This document shows positions 34,413 through 59,343 of a DNA stretch of 64,000 nt, piece by piece; the stretch's first letter is position 1; every line of letters starts with the position of its first letter. The stretch spans positions 1 to 64,000 of the forward strand of contig CALUHI010000011.1 of NCBI GenBank assembly GCA_944320405.1. The letters run 5' to 3'. Origin of the DNA: an uncultured Eggerthellaceae bacterium (GTDB taxonomy: Bacteria > Actinomycetota > Coriobacteriia > Coriobacteriales > Eggerthellaceae). The notes under the pieces were generated by a model. That model ran no database searches and had not been told where the DNA came from. It saw only the letters and a program-made list of their open reading frames with translations. A program made the position numbers and the translations under genes.

Positions 34413-34417
34413 CAGGC

Positions 34418-34443
34418 GTGACAGGGGACGGTCCTTCTGTCAC
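34418..34443 (+). repeat. REP-like palindrome copy 1 (forward)
   Basis: GTGACAG (34418-34424) and CTGTCAC (34437-34443) enclose GGGACGGTCCTT. It is followed by ATTTGGATAAT and preceded by a partial duplicate GCGTGACAG (34408-34415) that includes the tcdA stop. Confidence 0.9.
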
Positions 34444-34530
34444 ATTTGGATAATATGCGCTGAGGAAACCAGCTGATGCTTCTCTTTCTGCGCCGGGGAG
34501 CAAGTCTGCGACGGAAAGGACTAAGGCTCG

Positions 34531-35292
34531 ATGCCTCTGTACGACATGCATTGCCATCTGGGATTCGCCGAGAATGCGTGCGAGCTGGCTGCCGCGCTGG
34601 CAGGAGATGGCGGCGGCGCGCTGTCGGCGACGGTCGAGCCCTCGGAATACGTGCGCATGCGCGAACTGCTGGCTGATGAGCCGGCGGTGCGTGTGGGATT
34701 GGGCTTGCATCCATGGTGGCTCGACGACGGGCGATGCGGCGAAGATGATGTCGCAAATTGCATCGAGCTTGCACAGGAGGCGCGCTTCATTGCCGAGATC
34801 GGGCTTGATTTCGGAAAGCGTTGCGAAACGTCGCGCGACGTTCAACTGGGTGCTTTCGAGAGGGTCTGTGCCGTAGCGGGCGCGGCAGGGAGAAAGGTGC
34901 TGTCGCTTCATGCGGTGAACGCTGCGACAGAGGTGTTGGATGTCCTTGAGAAGACCGGCTGTCTGGCACCCGGCGGGGGAGGCTCGTGCACCTGCATTCT
35001 GCATTGGTACTCCGGCTCTTCGGATCAGCTTCAGCGCGCCGTGCGTTTAGGCTGCCACTTTTCGATCAACCCCCGCATGCTGCAAACGAAACGCGGACGT
35101 GAATACGCCCGAATCCTTCCGGCGAGCCGCCTGCTGCTCGAAACCGATCTTCCTCCCTCGGCGGGTGGAAGTTTCGATCCGGACAAGATTCTCCGCATTT
35201 TGCCCGACACTCTTGAAGCTCTCGAGGCGTTGCGCGGCGAGCCTCTTGCCGACCGTATCGCCGCAAACAGCGAAGCGCTCCTGCTTGCATGA
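34531..35292 (+). CDS. TatD-family hydrolase
   Basis: A 253-residue metal-dependent hydrolase with a TIM-barrel. HxH is in YDMHCHLGF, followed by VGLGLHPWWL, the Glu ligand in AEIGLDFG, His in SLHAVNA and HWYSGSS, and the C-terminal Asp in LLETDLPPS. TatD relatives include DNases and D-aminoacyl-tRNA deacylase-like activities; the substrate here is unknown. The protein is slightly diverged, for example the alanine-rich insertion at residues 20-35. Start: the ATG at 34531 after GGAAAGGA. It lies between repeat copies 1 and 2. Confidence 0.85.
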   Translation: MPLYDMHCHLGFAENACELAAALAGDGGGALSATVEPSEYVRMRELLADEPAVRVGLGLHPWWLDDGRCGEDDVANCIELAQEARFIAEIGLDFGKRCETSRDVQLGAFERVCAVAGAAGRKVLSLHAVNAATEVLDVLEKTGCLAPGGGGSCTCILHWYSGSSDQLQRAVRLGCHFSINPRMLQTKRGREYARILPASRLLLETDLPPSAGGSFDPDKILRILPDTLEALEALRGEPLADRIAANSEALLLA

Positions 35293-35298
35293 CCGGGC

Positions 35299-35324
35299 GT
35301 GACAGGGGACGGTCCTTCTGTCAC
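35299..35324 (+). repeat. REP-like palindrome copy 2 (forward)
   Basis: The same 26 bases as copy 1 (GTGACAG...CTGTCAC), followed by CTTTGGATAAT. It begins 7 bases after the tatD-like stop, 176 bases upstream of the transposase start. Confidence 0.9.
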
Positions 35325-35500
35325 CTTTGGATAATCGATTCTCGGCTCTAAATTGTCGCGCTTGTCGGAGAAGGACGCCTCTCCTGACAGTTTGACAACA
35401 AGATCCTTAAGGATAATTACAGGTAATTGTCTAGACGATACAATGCAGCTCCTGCGAAAGCGACGATTGTGGTTGCTTCGGTTCTGGGAGGTGTGTGGCG

Positions 35501-36250
35501 ATGCGCGCTGCAAGAAGACCATGCGAGACCAATGTTTATCATGTGTTCGCCCGCGGAGTCGGTCGACAGCTTATTTTCGAAGACGAAGAGGATCGGCTTT
35601 TGTTTCTCGACTTGATGAGCCGGTTTTCGACGCGAGACGGCATTTCCTTTCTCGCGTGGGCGCTCATGGACAACCACATTCATTTCCTTTTGAAAGCGCC
35701 CTTGCCGGCAATTTCGAAATTCATGTCGAGGCTGGAATCCGCATATGCGACCGCATTCAATGCGCGTCATGACCGGGTGGGCCATCTTTTTCAAGGACGG
35801 TTCGGATCACAGGGAATTGACTCCGATAGGCATCTTCTCGCGGCAGTGCGATACATTCACCAAAACCCGGTGAAGGCAGGAGTGTCGTCGGGGTGCTTCT
35901 ATCGGTGGAGCAGTTACGACGAATACGTTGGCTCCCCGCATCTGTGCGACACCGACATGGTTTTGGGGCTGTTCGCGAATCGAGAAGAATTCGCGTCGTT
36001 TCACGAGGTGGCAGAGACCTGTCGGTTCGCGGACGTCGAAGAAGAAGGGTCGCGTAAAAGCCGCCTCAGTGATCGGCGGGCCGAGGAACGGGCAATGGAG
36101 CTGTTTGGCGCCGAGTGGCGGCGCGACCTTTCCCTTATGGGCAAGCAAGATCGTGATGCGCGTTTGAGGGAGCTGATAAGCCTAGGATTGTCAGTGCGTC
36201 AACTTGAGCGGCTCACGGGAATCGGGCGCGGCATCATCCAGAGATGCTAG
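35501..36250 (+). CDS. REP-associated tyrosine transposase (RAYT, IS200-like Y1 family)
   Basis: A 249-residue HUH nuclease-like protein. N-terminal RPCETNVYHVFARGV is typical of the family. The HUH motif is MDNHIHFLL (His59, His61), then HLFQGRFGSQ and the catalytic Tyr118 in RYIHQNPVKAG. A C-terminal helix-turn-helix-like segment (LGLSVRQLERLTGIGRGI) is present. RAYTs are single-copy and bind and cut REP palindromes. Four copies of one palindrome flank it symmetrically. Start: the ATG at 35501 with GGGAGG upstream; a GTG at 35495 is too close to that site. No transposon ends of IS200 type or accessory orfB are seen. Confidence 0.9.
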   Translation: MRAARRPCETNVYHVFARGVGRQLIFEDEEDRLLFLDLMSRFSTRDGISFLAWALMDNHIHFLLKAPLPAISKFMSRLESAYATAFNARHDRVGHLFQGRFGSQGIDSDRHLLAAVRYIHQNPVKAGVSSGCFYRWSSYDEYVGSPHLCDTDMVLGLFANREEFASFHEVAETCRFADVEEEGSRKSRLSDRRAEERAMELFGAEWRRDLSLMGKQDRDARLRELISLGLSVRQLERLTGIGRGIIQRC

Positions 36251-36293
36251 ATTGCATCTGCGAAAAGGAAGTGCCCGTTTTGGATTATTCAGA

Positions 36294-36319
36294 TGTGACA
36301 GAAGGACCGTCCCCTGTCA
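36294..36319 (-). repeat. REP-like palindrome copy 3 (inverted)
   Basis: The reverse complement of copies 1 and 2 over all 26 bases, 43 bases after the transposase stop. The flanks GAT/ATC extend the stem by three pairs. Confidence 0.9.
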
Positions 36320-36336
36320 CATCCTGTTGTAGATGC

Positions 36337-36672
36337 TTAATCGCCGAACTCGAAGAGGTCTTCCAGGAAGCTTGTGGGCTTCTTCTTTTTCTTCTTCTTG
36401 TAGTCGTCGTGGCGCTTTTCGTGATCGTAGTCGTAGTCGCGCGAACGATGCTCGCGGTCGCGTCGGTCGTCGTAGTCGCGCGAGCGATACTCGCGGTCGC
36501 GTCGCTCGTCGTGGTCACGAGCGGGCTCCGCAGCGGATGGCGTCGAGCGTTCGATGATCTTGTCGAGCTCTCCGCGATCGAGCCAAACCCCGCGGCACTG
36601 GGGGCAGTAATCAATCTCGATGCCTTGGCGTTCGCTCATCAACAGATCAACATTACACAGGGGGCATTTCAT
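36337..36672 (-). CDS. TFIIB-type zinc-ribbon small protein with repetitive charged tail
   Basis: A 111-residue protein. The N-terminal zinc ribbon has CPLC (residues 3-6) and CPQCRGVWLDRGELDKII, as in the zf-TFIIB/COG3809 family. The middle is a charged Arg/Asp/Tyr repeat encoded by two 39-bp tandem DNA units (36431-36508), and the end is a seven-lysine run followed by SFLEDLFEFGD. Function unknown; nucleic-acid binding is possible. Start: the ATG at 36672 after GGAGGA. It lies between repeat copies 3 and 4. Confidence 0.85.
   Translation of the reverse strand: MKCPLCNVDLLMSERQGIEIDYCPQCRGVWLDRGELDKIIERSTPSAAEPARDHDERRDREYRSRDYDDRRDREHRSRDYDYDHEKRHDDYKKKKKKKPTSFLEDLFEFGD
36431..36508. repeat. 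Two 39-bp tandem repeats inside the zinc-ribbon gene
   Basis: Units 36431-36469 and 36470-36508 each begin TCGTAGTCGCGCGA and differ at only a few positions. A partial third (TCGTGGTCACGAGCG) follows. The period is 13 codons, so the frame is kept. Confidence 0.8.
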
Positions 36673-36979
36673 GGGATTCCTCCATTCCGCCGCGATCGGT
36701 CACTGCGGGAAAGCGGCATTGCCTGTAGTGTAGCGGACGCTCAAGGCGCCTCTTCCATCGGTAACCATGCCGTAAACCTGAGTTCAGGAATCTTGTCAAC
36801 ATCGCGATGCTTTCCGTGGCCAATTCTGCGAGAAGAACGAGAAGAAGGGGGCAATTATCCAAGCGTGACAGAAGGACCGTCCCCTGTCACGCTGTGGTAG
36901 GATTTCCGTGGTACGAACATGGGCGGCGATTCGGGCGCGGTGCCGGGGTCGCTGCCTTCTTGCGATGGAGGAACCATTC
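36673..36979. other. 307-base divergent gap holding repeat copy 4
   Basis: No gene seen. It contains palindrome copy 4 (36865-36890) and must hold divergent promoters for the zinc-ribbon gene and the FAD protein; no clear consensus boxes are visible. Confidence 0.6.
36865..36890 (-). repeat. REP-like palindrome copy 4 (inverted)
   Basis: The same 26 bases as copy 3, preceded by ATTATCCAA, which is the reverse complement of the TTGGATAAT that follows copies 1 and 2. The flanks AGC/GCT extend the stem. Confidence 0.9.
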
Positions 36980-41071: not shown

Positions 41072-42481
41072 GTGACTGAAGAATCCGCCGCCGAACAGAA
41101 AACGCGCAAGAAAAGCGAAGCTGCACGCGCGTTCGCCGAAGACGGACCGCGCAAGACCCATGTAGGCGGTCAGGCGCTCATCGAAGGCGTCATGATGCGC
41201 GGAAAATACAATTGGGCTGTCGCCGTGCGCGAGCCCAGCGGCAACATGCATGTCGAAGAACACGACCTTGCCAGTGGTCGCGCCAAGAACGGCTGGATGC
41301 ACTGGCCGGTCATTCGCGGCTGCCGTGCATTCGTGGAGTCGCTGATGCTAGGGTACAAGGCGCTGGAGGTCGCCGCCATCCATGCATTTGCGGATGAAGA
41401 TGAAGAGCCAGGGGACGATCCCGGGTCGTCCGCGGCCCTTTCGGGCGCGGATGCTTCCGTGACGCGCCGCTTCGCTGCTCAGGATCCTGCGGATCCTTCG
41501 TGCGCTTCGCTACTGCAATCAGATGAAGTCATAGATGGTGTGCAGACGGTCGCTCCAGCATCCGCGCCCGAAAGGGCCGCTACGTTTTCATGCTCGGAGC
41601 AGGGGGCGGCGACTCCGAAGGGGGAAGAAGAGAAAAAGTTCTCTTGGAAGGATGACTTTGGGAATCCGGATGAGATGATTGATGCGTTGGGGGCGCAGCG
41701 GACGTTGGAGGTTGTTGCCGAACCTGTGCCTGAGCCTGAGCCGGAGGCGGACGCACCTGAGAAGGAAAAGGAGTCTTCCGAAGAAGGGTTCGGGAAGAAG
41801 GAGATGGCCGTCTCCATGGTGCTGGGCCTGGTTTTGGGCGTGGCGCTGTTCATCGTGGCGCCGGCATTCATCACCAATTTGGTGGTGGGCGAGTACGATT
41901 CCAACCCGGTGCTCTGGAACATCTTCGACGGCATCCTGCGCGTGCTTGTGTTCATCTTCTACATCTGGCTGATTGGGCGCATGTCCGAGATCAAGCGCAT
42001 GTTTTCCTACCACGGTGCCGAGCACAAGACCATCCATTGCTACGAGCACGGCATGCCGCTCACGCCTGAGAACGCCCGGTCGTTCCCGCGTCTGCACGTG
42101 CGCTGCGGCACGGCATTCCTCATCATGGTGATGATCATCGCCATCTTCGTGTACACCGCCATCCCACTCGACGCGCTCATCGGCGCATGGGGGGTGCCCG
42201 ACGGCGCTCCCAAGCTGGCGCTCGTCATCTTCGTGCGCATTCTGTTCCTGCCAGTGATCGCGGGCATCTCCTATGAGATCACGGTGAAGTGGGCGGGCAG
42301 CCATCCGGAAAACCCGCTGGTGAAAGTGGTGCTGTGGCCAGGCATGCAGATGCAGCGCCTCACAACCAAAGAGCCTGATGACGGGATGCTGGAATGCGCG
42401 ATTGCGGCCATGCAGCGTGTGCTCGACCGCGAGGAAGAGGAGGCGTCGTGCGCCGCCCGGCCAGCGGAATCGCGGTCGTGA
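41072..42481 (+). CDS. YqhQ/DUF1385 membrane protein carrying an in-frame palindromic element
   Basis: A 469-residue protein. The N-terminal signature VGGQALIEGVMMRGKYNWAVAVR is conserved in YqhQ. After an acidic linker (residues about 108-235) four hydrophobic spans follow, with YHGAEHKTIHCYEHG between them. The function of the family is not established. Residues about 121-170 are encoded by the 149-nt element at 41432-41580, which is also inside the fumarase gene; the insertion lies in the linker and keeps the frame. Starts with GTG at 41072, directly after thyX. Confidence 0.9.
   Translation: MTEESAAEQKTRKKSEAARAFAEDGPRKTHVGGQALIEGVMMRGKYNWAVAVREPSGNMHVEEHDLASGRAKNGWMHWPVIRGCRAFVESLMLGYKALEVAAIHAFADEDEEPGDDPGSSAALSGADASVTRRFAAQDPADPSCASLLQSDEVIDGVQTVAPASAPERAATFSCSEQGAATPKGEEEKKFSWKDDFGNPDEMIDALGAQRTLEVVAEPVPEPEPEADAPEKEKESSEEGFGKKEMAVSMVLGLVLGVALFIVAPAFITNLVVGEYDSNPVLWNIFDGILRVLVFIFYIWLIGRMSEIKRMFSYHGAEHKTIHCYEHGMPLTPENARSFPRLHVRCGTAFLIMVMIIAIFVYTAIPLDALIGAWGVPDGAPKLALVIFVRILFLPVIAGISYEITVKWAGSHPENPLVKVVLWPGMQMQRLTTKEPDDGMLECAIAAMQRVLDREEEEASCAARPAESRS
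41432..41580 (+). repeat. 149-nt in-frame palindromic coding element, copy 1 (in yqhQ)
   Basis: Left arm 41432-41455 (starts GCGGCCCTTTCGGG) is perfectly complementary to right arm 41557-41580. The core is 41456-41556 (101 nt, starting TCCGTGACGCGCC, ending GACGGTCGCTCC). The core matches copy 2 at 58681-58781 in 95 of 101 positions; the arms do not match those of copy 2. It is read in the only open frame of six. Confidence 0.92.
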
Positions 42482-50340: not shown

Positions 50341-50472
50341 CCGCCGCCGCTTATCTGGACGGATGGTGGAGGGACCTGCGCACCGATGCCCGGCGGTGCG
50401 GGAGGGTATACAATGGCGCCCGTTGGATCGCAACGGCGGGGTAGCGTCCGCATTTCGACTGAAAGGCTCATC

Positions 50473-51621
50473 ATGGATTTGAAGGAAAAGGCCCTCGAAC
50501 TGCATCGCGAGTGGAATGGCAAGCTGGACACCGTGCCCAAGATGGATATCTCCACGCGCGAAGATCTGGCGCTTGCTTATACGCCGGGCGTCGCCGAACC
50601 CTGCAAGGTGATCGCGAAGGAGCCCGCCGCCGTCTATGAGTACACGCAGAAGGCCAACACCATCGCCGTGGTGAGCGATGGCAGCGCCGTGCTCGGCTTG
50701 GGCAACATCGGGCCTTTGGCCGCTATGCCCGTTATGGAGGGCAAATGCGCTCTGTTCAAGTCGTTCGGCGATGTCAACGCTGTGCCCATCTGCCTTGACA
50801 CGCAGGATGTCGATGAGATTGTCGAAACGGTCATCCGCATTGCCCCCGCTTTCGGCGGCATCAACCTGGAGGATATCTCCGCGCCGCGCTGCTTCGAGGT
50901 GGAGCGTCGCTTGATTGAGGCGCTCGACATCCCTGTGTTCCATGACGATCAGCACGGCACCGCCATCGTGGTGCTTTCTGGCGTTATCAACGCGCTGCGC
51001 CTGACCGGCAAGAAGAAGGAAGACTGCCGCGTGGTGGTCAACGGTGCTGGCTCTGCAGGCATTGCCATCGCGAAGCTGCTGCTCACCTACGGCTTCAAGC
51101 ATCTGACGCTGGTTGACCGCTGCGGCATCATCAGCTCGCGCTCCGAGGGCATCAACGAGGCCCAGCGCGCGATGCTGGCCACCACCAACCTCGATGACGT
51201 CGACGGTACGTTGGCTGATGCGCTCAAGGGTGCCGACATCTTCATTGGCGTGTCCGCTCCCAACATCGTGTCTGAGGAAATGGTTGCCTCCATGGCCGAC
51301 GACGCCATCCTGTTCGCGATGGCCAACCCCGACCCCGAGATTCTGCCTGATGCGGCCAAGCGCGCCGGTGCTCGCGTGGTGGGGACGGGCCGCTCCGACT
51401 TCCCGAACCAGATCAACAACGTGGTGGCGTTCCCTGGCATCTTCAAGGGCGCGCTCGCGGCGCGTGCGACGCGTATCACCGAGGAGATGAAGCTTGCGGC
51501 TGCCGAGGCGCTTGCGGCGCTCGTGTCCGATGAGGAGCTGTGCGAGGACTTCATCATGCCTGAGCCGTTTGATCCGCGTGCGGTTGATGCGGTGGCTCAT
51601 GCGGTGGAGGCTGCTGTTTAG
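50473..51621 (+). CDS. NAD(P)-dependent malic enzyme, short bacterial form
   Basis: A 382-residue enzyme that oxidatively decarboxylates malate to pyruvate and CO2. N-terminal LALAYTPGVAEPCKVI carries the catalytic Tyr. Then VVSDGSAVLGLGNIGP, metal site FGGINLEDISAPRCFEVE, FHDDQHGTAIVVLSG and the Rossmann GAGSAGIAIAKLLL. The Asp (LVDRCG) after the beta-2 strand favours NAD. It has no C-terminal phosphotransacetylase domain. Start: the ATG at 50473 with GAAAGG upstream and TACAAT at 50409-50414. It links the TCA branch with pyruvate. Confidence 0.95.
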   Translation: MDLKEKALELHREWNGKLDTVPKMDISTREDLALAYTPGVAEPCKVIAKEPAAVYEYTQKANTIAVVSDGSAVLGLGNIGPLAAMPVMEGKCALFKSFGDVNAVPICLDTQDVDEIVETVIRIAPAFGGINLEDISAPRCFEVERRLIEALDIPVFHDDQHGTAIVVLSGVINALRLTGKKKEDCRVVVNGAGSAGIAIAKLLLTYGFKHLTLVDRCGIISSRSEGINEAQRAMLATTNLDDVDGTLADALKGADIFIGVSAPNIVSEEMVASMADDAILFAMANPDPEILPDAAKRAGARVVGTGRSDFPNQINNVVAFPGIFKGALAARATRITEEMKLAAAEALAALVSDEELCEDFIMPEPFDPRAVDAVAHAVEAAV

Positions 51622-51922
51622 GCGCAATCTGATCTTTTCGACCTGTTCGCCCCGGATGGCGGGCGGGGGCTCCGTGCTCAAACAGTCCTGAGCTCGCTCA
51701 AAAGCGCCCACCCGCCCGCTCGGGCGGATAAAATGTTTGTCAACAGTCCACTGGACTGTTGACCATGCGGAACTGCGCGCGGAACCCCCGCCCGCCATCC
51801 GGGGCTACGTTGTCTTTGTTGGGAGTTTTTTTGCTTCTTATACGGCGACGGGCGCACAGGGGAGGGAAGTACCTGCGCGCCCGTCTTCGGTTCGAGCTTG
51901 CCACAGCAAGCTGGTTGCCGTG
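51622..51922. other. 301-base convergent gap holding a 157-nt inverted-arm element
   Basis: It lies between convergent malic enzyme and the transporter binding protein gene. No gene seen. It holds the palindromic element at 51649-51805 and a T run TTTTTTT at about 51830, which could end transcription from the left. Confidence 0.7.
51649..51805. repeat. 157-nt palindromic element with 29-nt inverted arms
   Basis: Left arm 51649-51677 (starts GCCCCGGATGGCGGGCGGGGG) and right arm 51777-51805 are complementary at 27 of 29 positions. The 99-nt core holds an inner palindrome GTCAACAGTCCA-C-TGGACTGTTGAC (51738-51762) and CCGCCCG/CGGGCGG. It has the same arm-core-arm plan as the coding elements. Confidence 0.85.
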
Positions 51923-53065
51923 TTAGGCCTTCGGCGTGGCCTTTGCGATGAGCTCGTTGAGCTCTTCGTCGGACAGGTCGTAGCCGTAGAACGTGGAGTA
52001 GTAGCTCTTCGTCACGTCGGCGATGGTGTCGTCGAACTTGTCGGGATACAACAGGCGCGGCAGCCACTGCATGCCCATCACCTGGTTGACCGTCGGCGGG
52101 TTGTTCAGCCAGTTGTACGGGGTGCCGGGGGCCTCGTAGTAGTTGCCGTTGTCGATGGCGGAGATGCCGTCCCATGCGGGATCGTCGGCGACCGCATCGT
52201 AGATGCTGCCGTAGCCGAAGATGATCATCTCGGGATCCCACAGCGCGATCTGCTCAAGGCTGGACTCGCTGCCGGTGCCTTTGTTGCTGGCGTTCTCGAG
52301 CACGGCCACGTTGTTCGCGAACATGTCAACGACCTGCGCCTGGTAGGTGTCCTTGCCGATGACGTTGGTGCCGTCTTCGCCCAACAGGTACAGCACGCTG
52401 ACGCGCTCATCCTCGGGGATGGTCTCCATGACGGCGGTCACTTCGTCGTAGGCCTGCTGGCAGTACTCGGAAAGCTCGGTGCCGCGCTCTTCCATGCCCA
52501 GCAGCTCGCCGAGCTTCTCGTAGGCGGCGCCGTAGTCGTCAAGCTTCGTTTCGATGAACACGCAGGGGATGCCCAGCTGCTCCTGCAGGGTGTCCAGATC
52601 CTCGGCGATGCCGTCTTTCATCTCGCCGGTGTCGATGAGCACCTGCGGGTCGGCGGCGGCGACAGCTTCTTTGTTGAGGTCGCCCTTGGCGCCGAAGATC
52701 TCACCGAACACAGGAAGGCTGGTAACGTCGATCTCGGAGCCCAGATACTTCTGCTGCGATTCCGAAAGCTCCTGAGACAGGCCGACCATCTTCTCGGGTG
52801 CCATGGTGAGCAGCACCTGGTTGGCCGTGTGGCCAGAGGGTGCGATGCGGTCGATGGTTGCGGGAACCTCGACCGTGCGGCCTGCGTCGTCGGTGAACTG
52901 CACGGTTTCGGTGCTGGCCTCGCTTGCGGGCTCGGAGGTTCCGCCGCTTGAATCGCCGTTGCTCGACGAGCAGCCAACGGCGCTGAACGCCAGGCCCAGG
53001 CACAGCGCCATGGCGGCCAGAACCGCCAGTAGCTTCGCATGCCGCTTCTTGCTGAGAGTGCTCAT
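51923..53065 (-). CDS. Periplasmic-binding lipoprotein of BtuF/FepB type
   Basis: A 380-residue cluster A binding protein. Lipobox SAVGC (Cys32), followed by a Ser/Gly linker. Peripla_BP_2 fold with VQFTDDAGRTVEVPATIDRIAPSG at the start and WDPEMIIFGYGS later; the two lobes are joined by a long helix. Ligands of the class include iron-siderophores, cobalamin, heme and molybdate or tungstate. Start: the ATG at 53065 after GGAAAGGAAGGA. Last gene of a four-gene minus-strand order (metal-chelation protein, permease, ATPase, binding protein). Confidence 0.88.
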   Translation of the reverse strand: MSTLSKKRHAKLLAVLAAMALCLGLAFSAVGCSSSNGDSSGGTSEPASEASTETVQFTDDAGRTVEVPATIDRIAPSGHTANQVLLTMAPEKMVGLSQELSESQQKYLGSEIDVTSLPVFGEIFGAKGDLNKEAVAAADPQVLIDTGEMKDGIAEDLDTLQEQLGIPCVFIETKLDDYGAAYEKLGELLGMEERGTELSEYCQQAYDEVTAVMETIPEDERVSVLYLLGEDGTNVIGKDTYQAQVVDMFANNVAVLENASNKGTGSESSLEQIALWDPEMIIFGYGSIYDAVADDPAWDGISAIDNGNYYEAPGTPYNWLNNPPTVNQVMGMQWLPRLLYPDKFDDTIADVTKSYYSTFYGYDLSDEELNELIAKATPKA

Positions 53066-57792: not shown

Positions 57793-59343
57793 ATGGATAC
57801 CATCATCACGAAACAGGCGGTGGCGACCGCCGTATACGAAGCAATTCCCCAGCTGGCATGCGAGCTTCCTGCTGACATTCTGGCAGGCCTGCAGGCGGCC
57901 CTCGAGCGCGAGGAGGCCCCGCGTGGGCGCGCGGTGCTGCAGCAGCTGGTGGAAAACGCGCATATCGCCAAAACGGATCATGTTCCCATCTGCCAGGACA
58001 CCGGCACGGTGTGGGTGAGCCTGGAGGTTGGCCCCGGCGTGCTCGTGCCCGCCGACGTGTTCGCGAATGTGAACAACGCCGTGGCGCGCGCTTACGACGA
58101 AGCGCGTCTGCGCAAGTCGGTTGTGCGTGACGCCATCCTCGACCGCACGAACACGGGCGACAATACGCCGGCGTTCTGCGACATCCACCCCGTGGACGAA
58201 CCGGGTGTTGCCCGCCTGCGCATCATGCTGAAGGGCGGCGGGTCGGACAACGCCAGCCGTGTGGTCATGCTGCCGCCGGGAGCGGGACGTGCGGGCATCG
58301 TCGAAGAAGTCGTGAAATGCGTGCGAGAAAAAGGCGCCAACGCCTGCCCGCCGCTTGTCACCGGCATCGGCATCGGCGGTACGTTCGACAAAGTCGCAGG
58401 CCTTGCGAAGCGCGCGCTCATGCGCCCGCTGGATGAACCCGCCGAAACCGAAGACGTCCGTGAGCTCGAAGAGGAGCTGCTTGAGGCCATCAACGCCACG
58501 GGAGTGGGACCGGGTGGTATCGGTGGCGCGACTGCCGCGCTTGGTGTACGCGTTGCGACCGCCCCTTGCCACATTGCCGCGCTGCCGCTGGCCATCAACA
58601 TGGGTTGCAGCGCGATGAGGCGCGCGACGGTTGACCTTGCGGTTCAACTTGCGGGGGCGTCCGCAGAGCCCGTCGGGGATTCCGCGACGCGCCGCTCCGC
58701 TGCTCAGGATCCTTCGGATCCTTCGTGCGCTGCGCTACTGCAATCAGATGAAATAATAGATGGTGTGCAGACGGTCGCTCCATCCCCGACGGGCTCCGCG
58801 GACGCTAACGATGCTGTTCGCCTTACTCTTCCGCTTGACCGCGCCCAGTTGCGCGGGCTCAAGGCGGGGCAGGCGTGCTTGCTTTCGGGGCCGATGTACA
58901 CGTTGCGCGATGCGGGGCATATGCGCCTGATGGAAGAGCTTGCCGAAAACGGCGGCGTGCTGCCGTACGGCCTTGATGGCCAGGCCATCTTCTACGCGGG
59001 GCCCACGCCTGCGGCGGCTGGGCGGCCGTTTGGCGCTGTCGGTCCCACGACGGCGTCCCGCATGGACTTTGCCGCACCGGCGCTCCATCGCGCTGGCATT
59101 GCGGCCACGATAGGCAAGGGGCATCGCAGCGCTGAGGTTCGCGCGGCGTGCGCCGAAACCGATTCCGTTTATTTCGTGGCATGCGGCGGGGCCGCGGCGT
59201 TGCTGGCGCGTTGCGTGGCATCATCGGAGACGGTTGCGTATGCGGATCTGGGCACCGAGGCCCTGCGCCGCATCGAAGTTGAGGACTTCCCGGTGTTCGT
59301 CGGCGTGGACACCGAAGGTAAAGACGTTTACGAGATCGTCTAG
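57793..59343 (+). CDS. Class I fumarate hydratase, fused alpha and beta subunits, with an in-frame palindromic element
   Basis: A 516-residue 4Fe-4S enzyme interconverting fumarate and malate. Alpha part (residues 1 to about 285): PICQDTGTVWV with Cys67, LRIMLKGGGSDN, GANACPPLVTGIGIGG and NMGCSAMRR. Beta part (about 342-516): GQACLLSGPMYTLRDAGHMRL and VGPTTASRMD. Between them, residues 289-338 are encoded by the 149-nt element at 58657-58805. No Shine-Dalgarno is seen; TACAAT (57780-57785) ends 7 bases before the ATG, so the mRNA is probably leaderless. L-tartrate dehydratase is a possible alternative activity. It supplies malate for the malic enzyme. Confidence 0.93.
   Translation: MDTIITKQAVATAVYEAIPQLACELPADILAGLQAALEREEAPRGRAVLQQLVENAHIAKTDHVPICQDTGTVWVSLEVGPGVLVPADVFANVNNAVARAYDEARLRKSVVRDAILDRTNTGDNTPAFCDIHPVDEPGVARLRIMLKGGGSDNASRVVMLPPGAGRAGIVEEVVKCVREKGANACPPLVTGIGIGGTFDKVAGLAKRALMRPLDEPAETEDVRELEEELLEAINATGVGPGGIGGATAALGVRVATAPCHIAALPLAINMGCSAMRRATVDLAVQLAGASAEPVGDSATRRSAAQDPSDPSCAALLQSDEIIDGVQTVAPSPTGSADANDAVRLTLPLDRAQLRGLKAGQACLLSGPMYTLRDAGHMRLMEELAENGGVLPYGLDGQAIFYAGPTPAAAGRPFGAVGPTTASRMDFAAPALHRAGIAATIGKGHRSAEVRAACAETDSVYFVACGGAAALLARCVASSETVAYADLGTEALRRIEVEDFPVFVGVDTEGKDVYEIV
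58657..58805 (+). repeat. 149-nt in-frame palindromic coding element, copy 2 (in fumarase)
   Basis: Left arm 58657-58680 (starts GCGTCCGCAGAGCC) is complementary to right arm 58782-58805 at 23 of 24 positions. The 101-nt core is 58681-58781 and is 95/101 identical to the yqhQ core; the arms are unrelated to those of copy 1. It lies exactly at the alpha/beta subunit junction. Confidence 0.92.

Follow-up and report, generated by a model that had tools for sequence, protein, structure and literature searches.

Palindromic elements of Rickettsia (RPEs) are ~100- to 150-nt palindromes that may sit in frame within open reading frames (ORFs), and members of one RPE family resemble one another in sequence along their whole length. 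Arm homogenization by template switching, together with spacer inversion, is known in yeast. Template switching within inverted repeats is reported to homogenize the arms and invert the spacers (PMC8604942), and a role in creating and maintaining stems has been proposed for it (PMC8794818); both papers deal with isolated inverted repeats or with RNA stems, whose spacers are a few bases long. REP elements have an unpaired tag, GTAG or CGTC, at one end (PMC3733652), and they are characterized by a family-conserved palindrome of 20-40 bp and an associated RAYT (Y1 tyrosine transposase). MITEs of the ERIC, RUP, and Correia type (PMC10969869) are short, non-coding, multi-copy inverted-repeat elements without an enzyme of their own, and they are defined by conserved terminal inverted repeats that a transposase recognizes and by a target-site duplication. 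The MRSC-65-2 motif, a mobile/repeat candidate (PMC11109978), reported in diverse phyla, is a single long covarying stem with a conserved UYCCGG repeat; it has dozens of copies per genome and was proposed to be selfish and possibly relevant as DNA.

The window analyzed here is a 64,000-nt stretch of DNA from an uncultured Eggerthellaceae bacterium. It contains a 157-nt intergenic palindrome between two convergent genes, which belonged to a family of Coriobacteriia repeats with a core of 68-81 nt at the tip of a 14- to 50-bp stem. Like REP, BIME, and REPIN elements, the copies were dispersed intergenic palindromes located mostly between co-oriented or convergent genes, with some inside genes, and the feet of a subset, (C/T)GTCC-G and C-TACG (hyphens mark the element ends), resembled both published REP tags, CGTC and GTAG (PMC3733652). 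However, the stems were unrelated between copies, the conserved part was the tip, and there was no link to a Y1 transposase, so the REP criteria of a short family-conserved stem and an associated RAYT were not fulfilled. The general description of MITEs also fit, but the terminal repeats were the variable part of the Coriobacteriia family; with locus-specific terminal arms, and with duplications checked by eye, the MITE criterion was not met. Two coding palindromes in the window were in frame, as RPEs may be, whereas the Coriobacteriia family conserved only its core. The single long stem was reminiscent of MRSC-65-2, in which the conserved element is the UYCCGG repeat. Finally, the copies shared arm homogenization, multi-base matched changes, and spacer inversion with template-switch (quasipalindrome) repeats (PMC8604942, PMC8794818). 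The criterion for an inverted repeat maintained in this way, namely arm homogenization and spacer inversion at orthologous sites, was met, although here the process acts on an entire family of dispersed copies that have a fixed core and spacers of ~60-100 nt.

RESULTS

The first-pass annotation of the window had described 29-nt arms that were complementary at 27 of 29 positions and flanked a 99-nt core with an inner 12-bp perfect palindrome. All of these features were reproduced from the sequence, and their positions are listed in Table 1. The two arm mismatches were C.A and T.G. A chance palindrome was ruled out by seed statistics and folding scores. Specifically, exact 14-nt inverted-repeat seeds within 130 nt occurred 0.05 times per shuffled window and at only four places in the real window, the intergenic element included. 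The RNA folding z-scores of the element were -10.7 on the + strand and -12.0 on the - strand, and 0 of 200 shuffles folded as well.

Table 1. Features of the intergenic element and its neighboring genes (positions in the window)
Feature	Position	Strand	Remarks
Malic enzyme gene	50386-51621	+	Neighbor, convergent
Left foot CTGTTC	51643-51648	+	Fits family foot consensus YG(T/A)(C/T)C beside the stem
Inverted repeat of the element	51649-51680 / 51774-51805		32 nt, 91% complementary
Left arm	51649-51677	+	Locus-specific, G-rich strand; pairing with right arm is perfect over the first 21 nt
Half-motif GTGCTCAAACAGTCC	51674-51688	+	Conserved in the family
Core, long variant	51678-51776	+	99 nt between arms
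Apical hairpin CCGCCC-GCTC-GGGCGG	51712-51727	+	Extra hairpin of the long variant
Inner palindrome GTCAACAGTCCA-C-TGGACTGTTGAC	51739-51763	+	12 bp, perfect
Half-motif TGCGGAACTGCGCGC	51766-51780	+	Conserved in the family; its GGA-ACT is able to pair, with one bulged A, to AGTCC in the first half-motif
Right arm	51777-51805	+	Reverse complement of left arm, 27/29
Right foot TACG	51806-51809	+	Fits family foot consensus T(A/G)C(G)
Periplasmic binding protein gene	51923-53065	-	Other neighbor, convergent

BLAST searches of the 2.0-Mb assembly of the bacterium's own genome, in which the queries were the element and a 72-nt consensus of the core, identified ~17 copies. The half-motif pattern GCTCARACA(N)0-2TCCT matched 17 sites in this assembly and none in a reversed control; the copy census rests on these searches. 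The core sequence was CCGTGCTCAAACAGTCCTGAGCTCGCACGAAACGCCCACTGGGCGTTTCGGCTCGTGCGGAACTGCGCGCGG or a close variant, and cores were 92% identical on average between copies. The long core of the window copy was common to just one other copy (G000:C17:23379-23500; 89% identity over the matched stretch). These two copies had a longer apical part containing the inner palindrome, and in the same place the short-core copies had a covarying hairpin with a CCACTGG-like tip.

The arms of the own-genome copies were 14-28 nt long and mostly perfect. When the outermost 12 arm bases were compared, 11.7 of 12 paired within a copy versus 5.1 of 12 between copies, and none of the 272 cross pairs reached 10. Outer-arm identity between copies (0.58) was at the shuffled level (0.57), and two copies (C30 and C10) had an identical 72-nt core but different arms. 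The suspicion that the arms of the intergenic element were locus-specific was thus borne out, as they were complementary only to their own partners. It had been proposed that a family would be supported by a conserved core with variable complementary arms, and refuted by the absence of other core copies or by arms that were identical everywhere. The core search and arm comparison yielded the former pattern, and neither refuting outcome was found. A different palindromic repeat, CTGAAAAGGGCTGAGG...CCTCAGCCCTTTTCAG, was noticed in the same genome (L011 1650-1760; G000:C2); its inside recurred at ~20 or more places, and it is possibly a third arm-core-arm family.

Some copies had sharp ends of the form YG(T/A)(C/T)C-G...C-T(A/G)C. 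Both feet, G[T/A][C/T]C- and -T[A/G]C, were present in 26 of 216 distinct elements (~12%), compared with 0-1 at shifted positions; most of the 216 lacked one or both. No direct target duplication was seen at the feet by eye. In the two palindromes located within coding sequence in the window (41432-41580 and 58657-58805), the cores were 94% identical and the locus-specific arms were perfect or near-perfect; one was in a DUF1385 gene, and the other separated the Fumerase and Fumerase_C domains of a fumarase gene. The coding and intergenic families had unrelated cores and a common foot signature, YGTCC-G...C-TACG (C-TA(C/A) in the coding copies). The first-pass annotation had suggested that the intergenic element was a second family using the mechanism of the coding one. 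It was indeed a second family, and the common feet supported a single mechanism for both, which is plausible but not proven.

The family was present in 16 of 41 relatives searched, and at least 113 stretches with the family core were found in a collection of bacterial and archaeal genomes. Nearly all of the matches listed from this collection were from Collinsella, Gordonibacter, Slackia, Adlercreutzia, Ellagibacter, Tractidigestivibacter, or related Coriobacteriia, and one record among them was labelled Corynebacterium. No match to the family was found in the plasmids, phages, and viral contigs searched. In Rfam, no family scored above its gathering score at the element; Collinsella-1 (RF01700) was considered and rejected as a different, single-site motif without the family core. 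We also found no openly accessible paper that names a repeat of this kind, whether in Collinsella or in Eggerthellaceae. The hairpin repeat family, in which the tip is fixed and the self-complementary stems are free, is real and widespread, and it was previously unlisted in Rfam or in the papers searched.

No mobilizing enzyme was found for the family. A RAYT/Y1 partner was dismissed on the basis of co-occurrence across genomes, because the presence of a Y1 transposase did not track that of the copies: two genomes with copies had no Y1 match (G007 and G008), and one with 8 Y1 matches had no copies (G009). The window itself contained a Y1 (IS200/RAYT-like) transposase gene at 35537-35866, surrounded by several 37- to 40-nt repeats, GTGACAGGGGACGGTCCTTCTGTCAC, in both orientations (34415-36892). 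Similar repeats flanked the C17 copy (L002).

When genes flanking the copies were predicted with a codon-usage gene caller, 42 copies lay between genes co-oriented with the core, 16 between genes oriented against it, 18 between convergent genes, and 2 between divergent genes. The first-pass annotation had also raised the possibility of a large convergent terminator, that is, a bidirectional transcription terminator between the two genes that converge on the window copy. Beyond this convergent arrangement, the data did not agree with such a role. There was no T-tract terminator match in 51400-52100, and the window element did not meet the criterion for an intrinsic terminator (a GC stem followed directly by a T tract). 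Furthermore, many copies were found between co-oriented genes. In Collinsella, one copy was in the spacer between the genes for threonine synthase and a GHMP (homoserine-type) kinase, inside a gene cluster and just upstream of the GHMP kinase ribosome-binding site. At least one decayed-arm copy (L018/L055; G000:C36:11163-11242) was apparently in frame within an ORF, as judged from a translation by eye without Pfam confirmation. We consider the terminator explanation very improbable. The ORF around the decayed-arm copy resembled a RecQ-type helicase by eye, but Pfam matched nothing in the one frame scanned. Many Collinsella spacers contained two elements within ~300 nt in opposite orientations (L396, L397, L398, L427, L428, L472, L474, and L478).

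The copy in the threonine synthase/GHMP kinase spacer was kept in one orientation across many Collinsella species, and this conservation hints at a function there. It was absent from the spacer in some Collinsella species (L413, L414, and L415), indicating that it is dispensable at this site. This copy and the 42:16 orientation bias, with almost no divergent contexts, would suit a structured RNA element (protein-binding, regulatory, or mRNA-stabilizing) that is transcribed in 3' or inter-cistronic regions, with a stem kept by compensatory mutation and a core that acts as a functional internal-loop motif. The strong fold of the element would suit it as well.

The pattern of substitutions in the helices bears on this idea. 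Across 27 cores, the two half-motifs were nearly invariant, and the apical hairpin covaried: 8 of 10 pairs were altered on both sides (57 such cells), and the covariation score was 0.372 versus 0.098 in shuffles, with 0 of 500 shuffles reaching the observed value. This covariation is what an RNA element would predict. On the other hand, one-sided changes were almost absent from the apical helix, and G-T pairs were nearly absent from the stems. In Collinsella arms, G-T and A-C accounted for 0.9% and 0.7%, respectively, of 3332 stem pairs; in the distal arms of copies that were mostly from Eggerthellaceae, they accounted for 1.0% and 1.5% of 1138 pairs. Stems that evolved as RNA should tolerate G-U, so the G-T level of only ~1%, no higher than that of A-C, looks like copying at the DNA level. 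Use of the G-T and A-C mismatches to identify an RNA strand was abandoned, since an apparent A-C excess near the core reflected a conserved local motif and not a general wobble signal. Further observations opposed an RNA element, namely the inversion of the core at two sites, the presence of cores in both orientations relative to genes, and arms that at some sites diverged beyond the adjacent flanks (a qualitative observation only, because a fixed-window arm-versus-flank divergence statistic was inflated by register). We regard an RNA element as unlikely, though not as negligible.

Presence at orthologous sites was labile. Within the same genus, several orthologous spacers were empty and had no matching hairpin (orthologues of L006, L009, L005, L055, and L057); these sites were too diverged for the target to be read. 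At a few sites, both species were occupied, and the arms and core type differed (L016 versus G001; L009 and L010 versus G002).

Collinsella genomes provided series of copies at the same site, in which the two arms changed in concert. At locus B in close Collinsella relatives, where the flanks were almost the same, the arms ...CCCGTGTGGCTCCGGAGGGGCGGGGCATAAGGTTT and ...CCCGGGGCGGACCGGAGGGCATGAAGTTTG were found; each was matched by its partner arm, and the cores differed. A 7-nt block in these arms was TGTGGCT/AGCCACA or GGGCGGA/TCCGCCC, with both arms altered together; a change was also present on one arm in L308 and on both in L315. At locus F, CTGGCTG/CAGCCAG, CTGCCTG/CAGGCAG, and CTGGCCG/CGGCCAG substituted for one another, and one copy was a mismatched hybrid (L339). 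Hybrids with one arm from each of two types were also observed at locus G (L456 and L457) and in L434. Locus C had two arm types, and the core of L380 was that of L379 inverted between the same arms; a second core inversion between kept arms distinguished L435 from L467. At locus K, four different arms were present between the same flanks, and among them were arms that paired perfectly at 49/49 and 41/41 positions. Template switching is expected to leave footprints of just this kind, namely hybrid and matched arms and core inversions, of which two were seen. The sides of locus B were ~3 kb apart in one Collinsella genome (L335; G218:C4:58900-63600), so the element had been disrupted there by an insertion or rearrangement.

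Comparisons between sites gave a different picture for cores and arms. When 133 Collinsella elements from 26 loci were compared, different loci never had an inner arm in common (best local score, 15), whereas the 81-nt core was 100% identical at many loci. For example, three elements in one Collinsella genome (L426, L449, and L450; G189) had identical 81-nt cores and unrelated arms, with a sharp identity boundary. Thus, when cores came to be shared, the arms did not travel with them. Such boundaries could mean that a mobile core inserts into pre-existing inverted repeats (for example, terminators or older copies), in which case the arms would be the halves of a split target palindrome, or that on insertion it templates an inverted copy of the target. 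The outermost arm bases and flanks were often kept where the inner arm and core differed, which would also fit this reading. Yet the empty orthologous sites of the same genus did not show the matching hairpin that a pre-existing target would leave (no near-identical empty allele was among them), and perfect 20- to 50-bp palindromes are not otherwise expected as targets. A mobile core of this kind seems improbable to us. No insertion was caught between an occupied site and an otherwise near-identical empty site, so the origin of the arms at insertion was not demonstrated.

DISCUSSION

We favor, with a probability of roughly two in three, the interpretation that these elements are interspersed, non-autonomous, REP/MITE-like hairpin repeats found throughout Coriobacteriia, whose site-specific stems are kept self-complementary by template-switch arm copying. 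The core, with its two nearly invariant half-motifs and covarying apical hairpin, would be the part shared between sites, and the stem sequence would belong to the site and not to the family. During replication, the palindrome may fold as a hairpin or cruciform, allowing one arm to template the other by polymerase template switching; the stem would thereby stay self-complementary, and the same process would also flip the core. With arm copying, stem sequence could drift freely, both arms in concert, and the similarity of the cores would be due to their recent spread, to gene conversion, or to selection. Three points here are inferred from the comparisons described above: template switching is the agent, an unidentified enzyme or gene conversion spreads the core, and the element is mainly selfish. 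Cassette exchange may also contribute to the arm changes, which were often accompanied by core changes. The orientation bias in tandem gene contexts counts against our interpretation, as pure DNA parasitism does not predict it; the lack of an identified mobilizing enzyme and the single-orientation copy in the threonine synthase/GHMP kinase spacer also weigh against it.

A more tentative possibility, to which we give less than even odds, is that the only transmissible unit is the hairpin tip. The core would spread, and the replication machinery of the host would make or remake a perfect, site-specific stem.

The Coriobacteriia repeat inverts the usual logic of bacterial palindromic repeats in that the tip is conserved and the stem is free. 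It provides natural series, across many species, that display arm homogenization, hybrid arms, and spacer inversion one site at a time, and the series come from common gut bacteria, including Collinsella aerofaciens. The long-standing question of whether long paired stems reflect RNA selection or DNA template switching is now directly testable, with the caution that covariation alone is no proof of RNA function. If transmission of the tip alone proves to be true, then this repeat would keep a palindrome without keeping the sequence of the palindrome.
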